Source: Limnobacter litoralis (GTDB lineage Bacteria; Pseudomonadota; Gammaproteobacteria; Burkholderiales; Burkholderiaceae_B). From it: a stretch of DNA of 64,000 bases. Positions 8,036 through 25,705 of the stretch are shown here, one piece after another. The position numbers were made by a program, and so were the translations under genes. The stretch covers positions 1 to 64,000 of the forward strand of contig NZ_BSOJ01000002.1 in NCBI RefSeq assembly GCF_030160455.1, given 5' to 3'. Within the stretch, counting starts at the first letter, position 1. Every line of letters starts with the position of its first letter. The notes under the pieces were generated by a model. It was given only the letters and a program-made list of their open reading frames with translations, was not told the origin of the DNA and made no database searches.

Positions 8036-8082
8036 GCCGCTGACTTGCCTTTTCTCGCAAAGCAAATTCTGGCTGGCCTAGA

Positions 8083-8140
8083 GCGCAAAGCCCGGTCTGT
8101 CTTGCCCTTGAATTGGGCTGCGACAGACCGGGCAGTGCGC
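8083..8140. repeat. Palindromic repeat, copy A
   Basis: GCGC-aaa-GCCCGGTCTGTC (8083-8101) pairs with GACAGACCGGGC-agt-GCGC (8122-8140) around a 20-base loop. A second copy at 11374-11569 has GCCCAGTCTGTC/GACAGACTGGGC, so a G-C pair here is an A-T pair there and pairing is preserved. The sequence just before the stem (CTGGCTGGCCTA) is also shared, so the copies are in the same orientation. Confidence 0.8.
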
Positions 8141-8254
8141 TTGGGGCAAGATTCAGCAGCCGCGTCACCCACGAGAGGGGTGAACAGACACCACTTTTGC
8201 TAGGTTAAAGCCAGAAACCTATACTGCATCGGGTCCGGAGATTCAACTCGACCG

Positions 8255-8908: not shown

Positions 8909-10243
8909 GAGCCTGTAAAAAATTCTGTGTAAGTTCATTCGGAATCAAGGGTGGTGAACGGTAACTCGTTCGCCGAATTCCAGAACAAATCTGTTCAGTG
9001 CCATTTTCCAGTTTTGTATCGGCATGGTCCACTTTCGACTGGCTTGCTCGATGGCAAGATACACCACCTTTCTGGCCGAGTCATCCGTGGGAAATACCTT
9101 TCGTCGTTTGGTGGCGGCACGAATGACGCTGTTCAAGGACTCCACGGCGTTGGTGGTGTAGATGGCCTTGCGAATCTCGGGTGGGTATTCAAAGATAGTG
9201 CGCAGGTTGGCCCAATGCGCCGTCCACGATTTGCTGATCTGTGGATACTGCGAGTCCCATGCTCTGCCGAATTGCTCCAGATTGCTCAAGGCTTGATCCT
9301 CAGTGGGCGATTGGTAAATCGTCTTCAGGGCCGCTGTGACCGCTTTGTAATCCTTCCACGACACATAGCGCAGGCTGTTGCGAACCATGTGCACAATGCA
9401 AAGCTGAACACGGGTTTGGGGAAACTCCACCGCGATGGCGTCTGGAAAGCCCTTCAAACCATCGACACAGGCAATCAGAATGTCTTGCACCCCACGGGCC
9501 TTCAGCTCAGTGAGCACGGACAACCAGAACTTGGCCCCTTCGTTCTCACTCATCCACAGGCCCAGCAAATCCTTGTGGCCGTCCATATTCACGCCTAGAG
9601 CCAGGTAAATCGATTTGTTGATCACCCGCATGTTCTCGCGAATCTTGATGACAATGCAGTCCAGATACACAATCGGATAAATGGGATCAAGGGGTCTGGA
9701 TTGCCATTCGGTGATTCGGTCAATCACACTGTCGGTGACTTTGGAAATGAGCGCTGCCGACACATCGGCATCGTACATTTCCTTGAATGCAGCAACGATT
9801 TCACGGGTGCTCAAGCCCTTGGCATACAGCGTCAGGATTTGATCATCCATCTGCGTCAGGCGGCTTTGGTGTTTCTTCAAAAGCTGTGGCTCGAACGATC
9901 CATCGCGGTCACGCGGGGTGTCGATTTGAACTTCGCCGTGCTGGCTCTTCAAACGTTTGGGCGTGCTGCCATTTCGGCTGTTGCCCTTGGCGGGTTTGCT
10001 GTCGGCGTGTTTGTCGTAGCCCAGGTGATCCGTCAATTCGGCACCCAGCGCTGTTTCTACGGTCAGTTTCAGCAGTTCCCGGGACAACGCGTTCAAGTCT
10101 GCTTCAGTCTTGATGTCCTTGGCCAGCTCGCTGGCCAAGGCTTGTAATTTGCTACGATCCATTGTGTGTGTACTCATCATCGGTCATTTCCTCAAAAGAG
10201 GTTAATTGGCCGAATGCACTTACACAAATTTATTTACAGCCTC
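8909..10243 (-). mobile_element. Complete IS256-family insertion sequence
   Basis: The element is 1335 bp long, bounded by imperfect inverted repeats of 34 bases at 8909-8942 and 10210-10243. The ends read GAGCCTGTAAA and GAGGCTGTAAA, and about 29 of 34 positions match. Flanking 8-bp direct repeats GGCACCGC show that it arrived by transposition. One transposase gene on the minus strand fills the element. It sits inside the lipase gene. Confidence 0.95.
8945..10180 (-). CDS. IS256-family (Mutator-type) transposase
   Basis: The protein has 411 residues, within the normal size range. The DDE catalytic residues sit in the family motifs VYLDCIVIKIRENM (first Asp), IACVDGLKGFPDAI (second Asp) and YTTNAVESLNSVIR (Glu). 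CIVHMVRNSLRYVSWKDYKA is the signature stretch between the last two. It appears intact, so the element may still be mobile. MDRSKLQALA, six codons in, is an alternative start. Confidence 0.97.
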   Translation of the reverse strand: MMSTHTMDRSKLQALASELAKDIKTEADLNALSRELLKLTVETALGAELTDHLGYDKHADSKPAKGNSRNGSTPKRLKSQHGEVQIDTPRDRDGSFEPQLLKKHQSRLTQMDDQILTLYAKGLSTREIVAAFKEMYDADVSAALISKVTDSVIDRITEWQSRPLDPIYPIVYLDCIVIKIRENMRVINKSIYLALGVNMDGHKDLLGLWMSENEGAKFWLSVLTELKARGVQDILIACVDGLKGFPDAIAVEFPQTRVQLCIVHMVRNSLRYVSWKDYKAVTAALKTIYQSPTEDQALSNLEQFGRAWDSQYPQISKSWTAHWANLRTIFEYPPEIRKAIYTTNAVESLNSVIRAATKRRKVFPTDDSARKVVYLAIEQASRKWTMPIQNWKMALNRFVLEFGERVTVHHP

Positions 10244-10251: not shown

Positions 10252-11373
10252 TGGCATGTTCAGCGATGTTCAAAGTGGCTTCGGTTTCATTGCCAGACTG
10301 AAAGGCGCTCGTTCCCGGGAAATTCTGATTGCAAGCCGTGGCACAGACCCCGGTAGGGCTTCCGACATCGGCACCGACCTCAATGCCCTACTTGTTCAGG
10401 GCCCAACCGGTCAGCGAATCCACAAAGGTTTCAACAGCACGTTCAAAAGCTACGTTCAGCAAATCGACGCATTTTTGAAGCCTCAAACCCTTGGCTTTAA
10501 ACCATCTGCCATTCATTGTGTCGGGCACAGCCTGGGTGGTGCCCTGGCCAACCTGAACGCCGCCGCTTGCGCTGAACTGGGTTACAACGCCTACATGTAC
10601 ACTCTGGCAGCCCCCAGGGTGGGCACTCTGCCTTATGCAGAACACGTCAGCAAAAAATTCAATTCCGCACACACTTACCGAATCGCCAACGCATCAGACC
10701 CGGTCACCATGGTGTCCTGTTATCCATTCATCCATGCACCCTACCAGCGCGGCACCTACCTGCTGAACGGCGGCACGCTGATCGTGAACCCTGCCAATCA
10801 TTTGCTTGGCGTTGGTTATCAATCGCTCAGCGGTAAAAGCTGGGCGCAGCTTAAGGCTGAAAGCGATGGCCAGATCAAATTGCTCGAACAAACGCTTTTC
10901 CCCGGTAACAATTTCGGCATTGGTGTTGACAAAATGCTGTCGATGCCAGTGATGCACTTCAGCGCAACCCTCTTGAGAAGCATCAATCTGGCGATCAACA
11001 AACTACTTCAAAAAATCGGGGCCCAGAACCTGATGTGCGTCAATCATTTCTCAACGGGTGCATTCACGACGCTGGATCAACTGGCAGAAATGCTCGTTCG
11101 TGCCGCCACAGCTTGCATTGATCACGCCAAAGAGGTCTACAGCATGTACGCAGCCGTTATGCAATTTTTGGGCAGAAAAGCGGGCAACGTTACGGGTATG
11201 ACTGTTGCCTTGCTGCGTTGGGCATTTAATCTGATGTATTCCAGCATGCTGGGCATGGCATCCTTGGCAATCAAGCGGTTGCAATAACAGCATGCTGGTT
11301 GCTCTGCGCGCAACTAAGATGCAAAGCCTGATCTGTTTCGCCTAGAAAACTGGCCCAGTCTGGCTGGCCTATG

Positions 11374-11569
11374 GCGCAAAGCCCAGTCTGTCTTGCCCTT
11401 GAATTGCCCGATTCACTTTGAATTGCCTCTGGCCTTGGAAGCCCGAGCGACAACTCGCCCCGGTAAAGCCGGGGCTCAGACAAGTCGCAGGTCGGGCAAG
11501 TTCCAAGGCTGCGAGTCAACATAAGCGGGGCGATTCTTGAATCGGGCTTCGACAGACTGGGCAGTGCGC
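11374..11569. repeat. Palindromic repeat, copy B, carrying a nested insertion
   Basis: The outer arms GCGC-aaa-GCCCAGTCTGTC (11374-11392) and GACAGACTGGGC-agt-GCGC (11551-11569) match copy A at 8083-8140 with one compensatory pair change. The loop holds about 138 extra bases bounded by CCCGATTCA (11407-11415) and its exact reverse complement TGAATCGGG (11538-11546). Inside that lies a further hairpin (11433-11508). The 11288-11924 gap contains no gene I can support. Confidence 0.75.
11433..11508. repeat. Long hairpin element, unit H1
   Basis: CCTTGGAA (11433-11440) pairs with TTCCAAGG (11501-11508). Next come GCCCGA with TCGGGC, then GCGAC with GTCGC, with small bulges. The tip is a 7-bp stem, GCCCCGG-taaag-CCGGGGC (11457-11475). 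Unit H2, on the other strand, shares this architecture but has different stem sequences at the tip and base. Confidence 0.75.
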
Positions 11570-11646
11570 TCGGATCAGACCGAGGCTTTGTAGGTGGGTG
11601 TGTCACGCAGCGCGATTCAGGGTTGCCCGGCTGTTCAGAGCCCGCA

Positions 11647-11723
11647 GCTTTGGAACATGCCCGACCTGCGACATGTTTGAGTGGCTTGCAAAGCCACGAG
11701 TTGTCGCTCGGGCTTCCAAAGCC
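11647..11723. repeat. Long hairpin element, unit H2 (inverted copy of H1)
   Basis: Read on the minus strand, this copy matches H1 over about 75 bases: TTTGGAAGCCCGAGCGACAA, then a tip stem, then GTCGCAGGTCGGGC. Its tip stem is GTGGCTT-gca-AAGCCAC (11681-11697 on +), wholly different in sequence from the H1 tip yet equally well paired. The basal pair is also exchanged (CTTTGGAA/TTCCAAAG against CCTTGGAA/TTCCAAGG). Structure is therefore conserved over sequence. Confidence 0.75.
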
Positions 11724-11924
11724 AGGGTTCTGATCAGCGCTTTTGGGGCAAACCAAGCGCAAGTGACATACACACCTGCAATAGCCGACGCAGCAACAGC
11801 CGACTCAGCATGCAAACCCGCAACAGCCAACCCAGCCACAGCCCCCCCAGTGTTTACCCTCAAACCCGCACACTTCCAACCATTGCTGCACCGCAAAAAG
11901 TTGATCAAAACACTCAACTTTGTT

Positions 11925-24761: not shown

Positions 24762-24790
24762 CAGAACAGCATGCCTTGTGCGAGCAGAAC

Positions 24791-25001
24791 GGCAGACCAA
24801 CTCCCCCTCGTGACAGGCAGTCTGCTAACGAATGGCAGACCAACTCCCCCTTGTGACAAGCAGTCTGCTAACGAACGGCAGACCAACTCCCCCTTGTGAC
24901 AAGCAGTCTGCTAACGAACGGCAGACCAACTCCCACTCGTGACAAGCAGTCTGCTAACGAACGGCAGACCAACTCCCACTCGTGACGGGCAATCTGTTTC
25001 T
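24791..25001. repeat. 43-bp tandem repeat, nearly five units
   Basis: Units begin at 24791, 24834, 24877, 24920 and 24963, each starting GGCAGACCAACTCCC. The last is degenerate. Consecutive units form GTCTGC-taacgaacg-GCAGAC hairpins across their junctions. There are no spacers, so this is not a CRISPR array. It follows the transglutaminase stop by about 30 bases. Confidence 0.95.
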
Positions 25002-25070
25002 CACAAACTGAGCCTCGCGATCGCTGGGGCCGACCCTCCAAAAAAGAAGTCGGGCTCGCCCCCTTTTCGC

Positions 25071-25387
25071 GCCTGCTCGGCACGTTTGTGCAGATTGCCC
25101 TGACCGTCACTGCGGGGGAATTGATCCGCCGTTCTGCCGTTCTGCTGGTCTGCTGGTCTGCTGGTCTGCTGGTCTGCCGCCACATGATGCATTCGAAGCG
25201 CATCTGCTCAGTGCGAACTTCAAGCACCCCGAAGGTTTGACGGTCGGGCTGAAGAATGGCCACGCCAGTGGCGCCGGTGCACGCTTGTTTGAGCCCCTCA
25301 AGGGCGAGTTGCGTGACCGGTTTCTTCGGGCGACCGGCAACCTTTACCACAGGGTGCCGTTCGCGGTGCGCAGGTGGGCTTTGAATG
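25071..25387. repeat. Degenerate direct duplication, copy 1
   Basis: The segment from GCCTGCTCGGCACGTTTGTG to GTGGGCTTTGAATG recurs at 25418-25698 with about 90% identity by eye. This copy has extra GGTCTGCT units (near 25143-25178). One plus frame (about 25183-25412) reads AFEAHLLSANFKHPEGLTVG then ELRDRFLRATGNLYH, which looks like the tail of a lost protein I cannot identify; the second copy is frameshifted. Confidence 0.85.
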
Positions 25388-25417
25388 TGATGAAAGCTGC
25401 GGATCGTGTTTGAATAA

Positions 25418-25698
25418 GCCTGCTCGGCACGTTTGTGCAGATTGCCCTGACTGTCACCGCGGGGGAATTGATCCGCCGTTCTGCTGGTCTGCCGCCACAT
25501 GATGCATTCAATGTCCATCTGCTCAGTGCGAACAGCACCCTGAAGGCTTGACGGTCAGGCTGAAGAATGGCCACGCCAGTGGCCCCGGTTCACGCTTGTT
25601 TGAGCCCCACAGGAGCGAGTTGCGTGACCGGTTTCTTCAGGCGACCGGCAACCTTTACCACGGGGTGCTGTTCGCGGTGAGCAGGTGGGCTTTGAATG
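25418..25698. repeat. Degenerate direct duplication, copy 2
   Basis: The second copy of the 25071-25387 segment is 36 bases shorter, mainly through loss of GGTCTGCT units. It ends 8 bases from the lysS stop codon. I see no gene in 24762-25705. Confidence 0.85.
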
Positions 25699-25705
25699 AC
25701 CTAAA

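Follow-up and report, generated by a model that had tools for sequence, protein, structure and literature searches.

Facing hairpins with an invariant internal loop and freely varying stems form a dispersed intergenic element in Limnobacter litoralis

An intergenic region of Limnobacter litoralis contains an inverted pair of long hairpins (H1 and H2) with tip stems that differ in sequence, and it raises the question of what kind of element retains pairing while its sequence changes. The pair lies within a contiguous stretch of 64,000 nucleotides that was analysed as a whole (the window). The initial annotation, made from the letters of the sequence, had suggested an undescribed REP- or MITE-like element or a structured RNA family, possibly associated with a transposase such as TnpA-REP. 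It was verified that H1 and H2 are inverted copies of each other, and that they have in common one arm of 39 nt (11475-11513/11643-11681, 90% complementary) and one of 29 nt (11429-11457/11697-11725, 97% complementary). As had been described, the tips differ yet pair (GCCCCGG-TAAAG-CCGGGGC in H1; GTGGCTT-TGC-AAGCCAC, read on the minus strand, in H2), and a basal C-G pair is exchanged for T-A (CCTTGGAA/TTCCAAGG versus CTTTGGAA/TTCCAAAG). The three nested levels, i.e., outer palindrome, middle palindrome and H1, were also found. As DNA, both H1 (z = -6.4) and H2 (z = -5.7) fold better than every dinucleotide shuffle, and the whole element folded as RNA reaches z = -15 against dinucleotide shuffles. 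The features of this locus and of two related sites in the window are:

8068-8144 (+): outer palindrome arms without the inner hairpin, with a TTGAATTGGGC junction (similarity to the element)
11353-11433 (+): left flank with incomplete units of the left repeat, which elsewhere forms tandem units spaced by 77 bp (direct repeat; homologous units in other copies)
11374-11392 (+): outer palindrome, left arm (inverted-repeat search)
11407-11415 (+): middle palindrome, left arm CCCGATTCA (sequence)
11426-11513 (+): H1, consisting of stem, AACTC/TCAGACA internal loop and GCCCCGG tip
11452-11456 (+): H1 loop, 5' side AACTC, invariant
11457-11475 (+): H1 tip stem-loop
11476-11482 (+): H1 loop, 3' side TCAGACA, invariant but for the fourth base
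11538-11546 (+): middle palindrome, right arm TGAATCGGG (sequence)
11551-11569 (+): outer palindrome, right arm (inverted-repeat search)
11580-11592 (+): junction without the octamer array (GGTCAGCA, 4 to 12 units, plus flanks) of the eight other full copies (alignment, octamer counts)
11643-11728 (-): H2, inverted partner of H1, GTGGCTT tip
11674-11680 (-): H2 loop, TCAAACA side
11681-11697 (-): H2 tip stem-loop
11698-11702 (-): H2 loop, AACTC side
11752-11836 (+): right flank, CAAGCGCAAGTGACAT..CTGCAATAGCCGAC units, tandem in other copies (direct repeat; other copies)
24787-25700 (-): a second such element, containing a 43-bp tandem array, an octamer array and two tandem hairpins

The pair at 11353-11836 is a shortened copy of a dispersed intergenic element. 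When the own genome was searched with 461 window bases, eight further full copies were found, which are 89-96% alike in the matched pieces, lie at different, unrelated intergenic sites and contain no gene, so that the element is gene-free, multi-copy and short, as is typical of MITEs. Together with their relatives, among them a half copy that has diverged (C30) and a hairpin pair of related type between flhB and flhA (C17), the nine full copies account for 23 hairpins at 12 loci. Every full copy contains both hairpins facing each other, with the octamer array, which is missing from the window copy, between them. Outside the hairpin pair lie tandem units of variable number, of about 77 bp on the left and about 50 bp on the right, and these tandem repeats blur the ends of the element. 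Neither an empty site nor a target-site duplication was identified. The middle palindrome pairs in most other copies as GCCCATTCAA/TTGAATcGGGC. The hairpin core GGAAGCCCGAGCNNNAACTCG occurs 21 times exactly in the own genome and not once with one to three mismatches.

The hairpins comprise 86-112 nt, internal loop included, and have a common architecture of stem, AACTC, tip, TCAnACA and stem, in which stems and tips are free in sequence yet paired and the tip stem opens with an invariant G-C pair. C17 has GCCGG/CCGGC in place of the stem GCGAC/GTCGC, together with a different, longer tip, and C30 carries a third tip type (CCCCAG/CTGGGG). The tip pairing was kept in 19 of 19 aligned hairpins of the own genome, and no copy lacking it was seen there. 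In other genera the tip may shrink to 2 bp (AACTCGC-TAAC-GCTCAAACA) or contain internal mismatches, and therefore a long tip is not obligatory.

The form at 8068-8144 is either a deletion product or an unfilled form. The hairpins of the second window element (25266-25328 and 25577-25639) are arranged in tandem rather than facing; its octamer array has the unit TCTGCTGG, and over 168 bases the element shares about 71% identity with elements of genome G002, another species of the genus. A gene for a Mutator/IS256-type transposase (8945-10180, minus strand; PF00872, E 7e-115) is situated 1.2 kb from the hairpin element, and no link between the two was found.

None of the 16 remaining genus genomes gave a BLAST match to the window element. 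The search with a structure model that the initial annotation had called for was performed with a covariance model built from the own hairpins, which did not demand the loop sequence. It returned 18 more hairpins in G002 and one each in G003 and G004, and the hits in these genomes that were read had the same loop and other stems. Among the 17 genus genomes, the hairpin form is abundant in three other species, present once in four, and nine are devoid of a true copy. The single copies of G003, G004, G013 and G016 share one location, flanked by genes for a glycosyltransferase and a gltL-type ABC transporter, and have the fold of a three-way junction, the side hairpin of which also changes in a paired way. 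At this location G002 has a copy as well, of the G002 type, and the gltL-adjoining copy of these five genomes looks inherited. Four different tip stems in nearly identical surroundings were found in G014.

The family and the class were scanned with the pattern AACTCGC-N(4-32)-GCTCAnACA. Among 269 family genomes the highest counts were 115 (G141), 53 (G203), 30 (G143), 23 (G009) and 19 (G002), several further ones contained 8-18 copies each, and among 370 genomes sampled from the class, G618 had 22, G465 and G404 had 12 each, and G531 had 11, while the reversed pattern, used as a control, gave 0-3 per strand overall and 0-2 in the family. Most scanned genomes had no copy or one, and copy numbers jump between relatives. 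Relatives of the element thus occur in many genera, other families of the class included, with a patchy distribution. Exact scans of genome and viral contigs with the stem of the own species gave single scattered matches at chance level. Plasmids and phages contained no match for the window copy or the G465 version, and plasmids none for the G143 and G141 versions; short queries gave weak plasmid matches within genes, which were discarded. Motif matches within dgt of G014 and within an RNase G-like gene of G002 (L183) are coding and were attributed to chance. The elements of G141 have AAAGACGCCG..CGGCGTCTTT near their ends and also contain inverted hairpins; many of them (L195-L198, L209-L238) are paired nested palindromes of about 190 nt in which tips seem to be exchanged between elements with identical flanks. 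At one locus of G143 (L192, 1150-1490) a remnant of a ribbon-helix-helix antitoxin gene and a broken toxin gene lie between two facing hairpins; a toxin-antitoxin association was dismissed, as this was the only such locus.

Covariation was quantified with 50 representative 35-base cores from 19 genomes, using a fixed spacer, no fitting and fixed-column counts. The score was 0.601, compared with 0.188 +/- 0.019 for shuffled cores and 0.198 for the best slid register, 78.0% of the cells were paired (51.2 +/- 1.7 after shuffling), and 10 of the 11 pairs exhibited changes on both sides. Because the loop bases of this set are fixed by the search pattern, loop invariance was tested separately. When about 1 Mb of fetched DNA was searched for hairpins of the paired geometry and as many as three mismatches in the loop were allowed, 93 hairpins had the exact loop and one had one mismatch (control 3), while those with two or three mismatches were at the control level. 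The G141 loci that had been fetched via the outer arm, not the loop, had 21 exact loops, and loops with one or two mismatches were absent. The nine own copies, found through overall similarity and independent of the loop pattern, were variable in 0 of 22 loop columns and in 4 of 102 columns of the hairpin core, compared with 155 of 469 elsewhere in the element (p = 2e-11). In these copies the stems and the H2 tip are as conserved as the loop, indicating that constraint acts on the entire hairpin in this species. Outside the hairpin cores the element differs by 11% among the own copies and the cores stay intact, which is more constraint than inert mobile debris should show, and thus gene conversion or a role preserved in the host may contribute.

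Paired changes can also arise without selection, when template switching in quasi-palindromes alters both arms together, and the perfect nested palindromes as well as the tips that change within nearly identical flanks in G014 and G141 would fit such a mutational by-product. However, the internal loop stays unpaired and invariant, although this kind of correction would tend to close it, and neither the facing pairs nor the loop bases common across families are explained. This origin is thus regarded as very unlikely.

In 12 genomes, 45 of 46 pairs of neighbouring hairpins less than 1 kb apart were facing, and the sole exception is the second window element. The flanking genes, as judged from crude ORF calls, were convergent at 20 of the 32 loci that could be classified in G141 and in five genomes from other families; G141 had 10 convergent and 2 divergent among 16, and G618, G465, G337, G466 and G364 together again had 10 and 2 among 16. 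The single hairpins of G002 and G014 had sense orientation to the upstream gene in 16 cases and antisense orientation to the downstream gene in 18 (also crude ORF calls), indicating that there is no strand preference relative to genes. A preference for the leading or the lagging strand of replication did not emerge clearly from counts of 12:6 and 9:4.

These results bear on the strongest rival explanation, a structured RNA in 3' regions, which both of two converging transcripts would meet in the same sense, and which would stabilize or terminate the RNA or bind a protein. Read from the complementary strand, its loop would be UGUnUGA/GAGUU, with possible tandem G-A pairs. Stems that covary around invariant loop bases, the three-way-junction fold at a locus common to four species, the enrichment between convergent genes and the facing polarity of the pairs are all in line with it. 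In contrast, the 16 sense and 18 antisense hairpins are not, and none of the families in the Rfam covariance models matches. The structured RNA family of the initial annotation is therefore less favoured and appears rather unlikely, and because the single hairpins ignore the direction of transcription, a folded DNA is preferred to a strand-specific RNA.

The same placement would suit a chromosomal site with a host function, e.g., relief of supercoils, binding of a nucleoid protein or gyrase, or separation of converging transcription, which is slowly duplicated. Comparable host functions have reportedly been proposed for the BIMEs of Escherichia coli. The conservation of the hairpin cores after the copies had diverged, the gltL-adjoining site kept in five species and the preference for convergent genes argue for such a site. 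Nevertheless, nine of 17 genus genomes lack a true copy and four have one, and most family genomes have few or none, so that its role is not an essential one; the jumps in copy number between relatives also speak against it, and this explanation is considered to be unlikely.

The REP- or MITE-like character that had been proposed held in kind, as the element is dispersed, intergenic, gene-free and multi-copy with paired inverted hairpins, but the link to TnpA-REP did not. The respective domain, PF01797, is absent from the own genome (G000) and from G002, G003 and G004. It is present in 59 of 269 family genomes and in none of the 13 with at least eight motif copies, for which the chance is 0.037. 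Neither an enzyme nor an autonomous copy was found, and the genes beside the copies included no recurrent one suggestive of an enzyme. A degenerate Y1-like gene occurs once each in 15 of the 17 genus genomes, with or without repeats, and its HUH motif is gone in the three cleanly aligned copies. As it is a genus-wide single-copy gene without HUH that is also present in repeat-free genomes, it was rejected as the mover; it is possibly a domesticated relic. It was localized in G014 between dgt and gltB (L099, 1381-2073) and in the own genome at C6:423723-424403 (L138). The element may be an old passenger of an enzyme that has since been lost.

GTAG REPs and the REPINs and BIMEs that occur with RAYT are likewise dispersed intergenic hairpins, often in inverted pairs and mostly downstream of genes (PMC3733652, PMC8266576), and in the studied cases TnpA-REP reads them as a single strand (PMC8266576). 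In contrast to them, the element is far larger and nested, an invariant internal loop replaces the GTAG tag, and no Y1 transposase is present in its high-copy genomes. GTAG was found at the hairpin foot neither beside H1 or H2 nor in the 50 cores. An ordinary REP or REPIN moved by RAYT, a Y1 tyrosine transposase, would account for facing hairpin repeats in intergenic DNA, but the missing tag, the distribution of PF01797 and the relic without HUH make it extremely improbable. CGTC repeats are palindromic dimers without a known dedicated transposase, and in this respect they resemble the element; they have a stem of 8-9 bp, a loop of 4-5 nt and a CGTC, TGTC or CCTC tag (PMC3733652), unlike the hairpins of 86-112 nt with the AACTC/TCAnACA loop, which do not fit the CGTC definition. 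BRE is a mostly intergenic repeat of about 90 bp in betaproteobacteria, Comamonadaceae included, with variable copy number and suspected mobility (PMC3110155), and its host range and intergenic placement overlap with those of the element. According to its description, BRE forms direct repeats in tandem that resemble each other in sequence (PMC3110155), unlike facing pairs with free stem sequence. The two, compared by description only, may be the same family, which would reduce the novelty of the element.

In integrons, attC sites are recognized as folded single strands in which the stem sequence is free and unpaired bases are important, and they form cassette arrays. The element has in common with them the free stem sequence and the fixed unpaired bases, but it lacks the RYYYAAC/GTTRRRY pairing (its 3' partner is TCAnACA, without GTT), and it forms facing pairs instead of cassette arrays. 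The chromosomal repeat bcr1 likewise contains no gene, is conserved in secondary structure and shows mobile features. This repeat of the Bacillus cereus group, which is named in PMC3110155, differs from the element in phylum, size and sequence. The open literature yielded no specific description of the element or its sequence, and papers outside the open literature may exist.

Taken together, the element is best explained, with a probability of roughly 0.6, as a REP/MITE-type DNA element that is dispersed, carries no gene, is non-autonomous and is recognized as a folded hairpin by a predicted protein. The working part would be the folded hairpin with its base stem, the asymmetric internal loop AACTC/TCAnACA and the tip stem, and an element usually has two of them face to face. 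A trans-acting protein would recognize the folded single strand, exposed during replication or extruded as a cruciform, via the shape of the stem and the loop bases and not via the stem sequence. Free paired stems around fixed unpaired bases are the pattern that a protein reading a folded strand would leave. Such recognition would drive dispersal, and each copy may still be of use at its site; after dispersal the copies would be constrained by this use or by gene conversion among them. The copy number, the scattered sites and the patchy presence suggest that dispersal was brought about by a trans-acting enzyme. Tentatively, the element could represent a third, class-wide superfamily of palindromic interspersed repeats, characterized by an invariant asymmetric loop, free stems, facing pairs and a hairpin-specific protein that is not of the Y1 type.

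How palindromic repeats spread without a dedicated transposase is an open question that has been stated for the CGTC repeats (PMC3733652). The element offers a sharp recognition feature in this respect, namely 11 loop bases that stay the same across dozens of unrelated stems. The hairpin could thus serve as bait for its predicted reader protein, and as a key in searches for what appears to be an overlooked class of intergenic elements.
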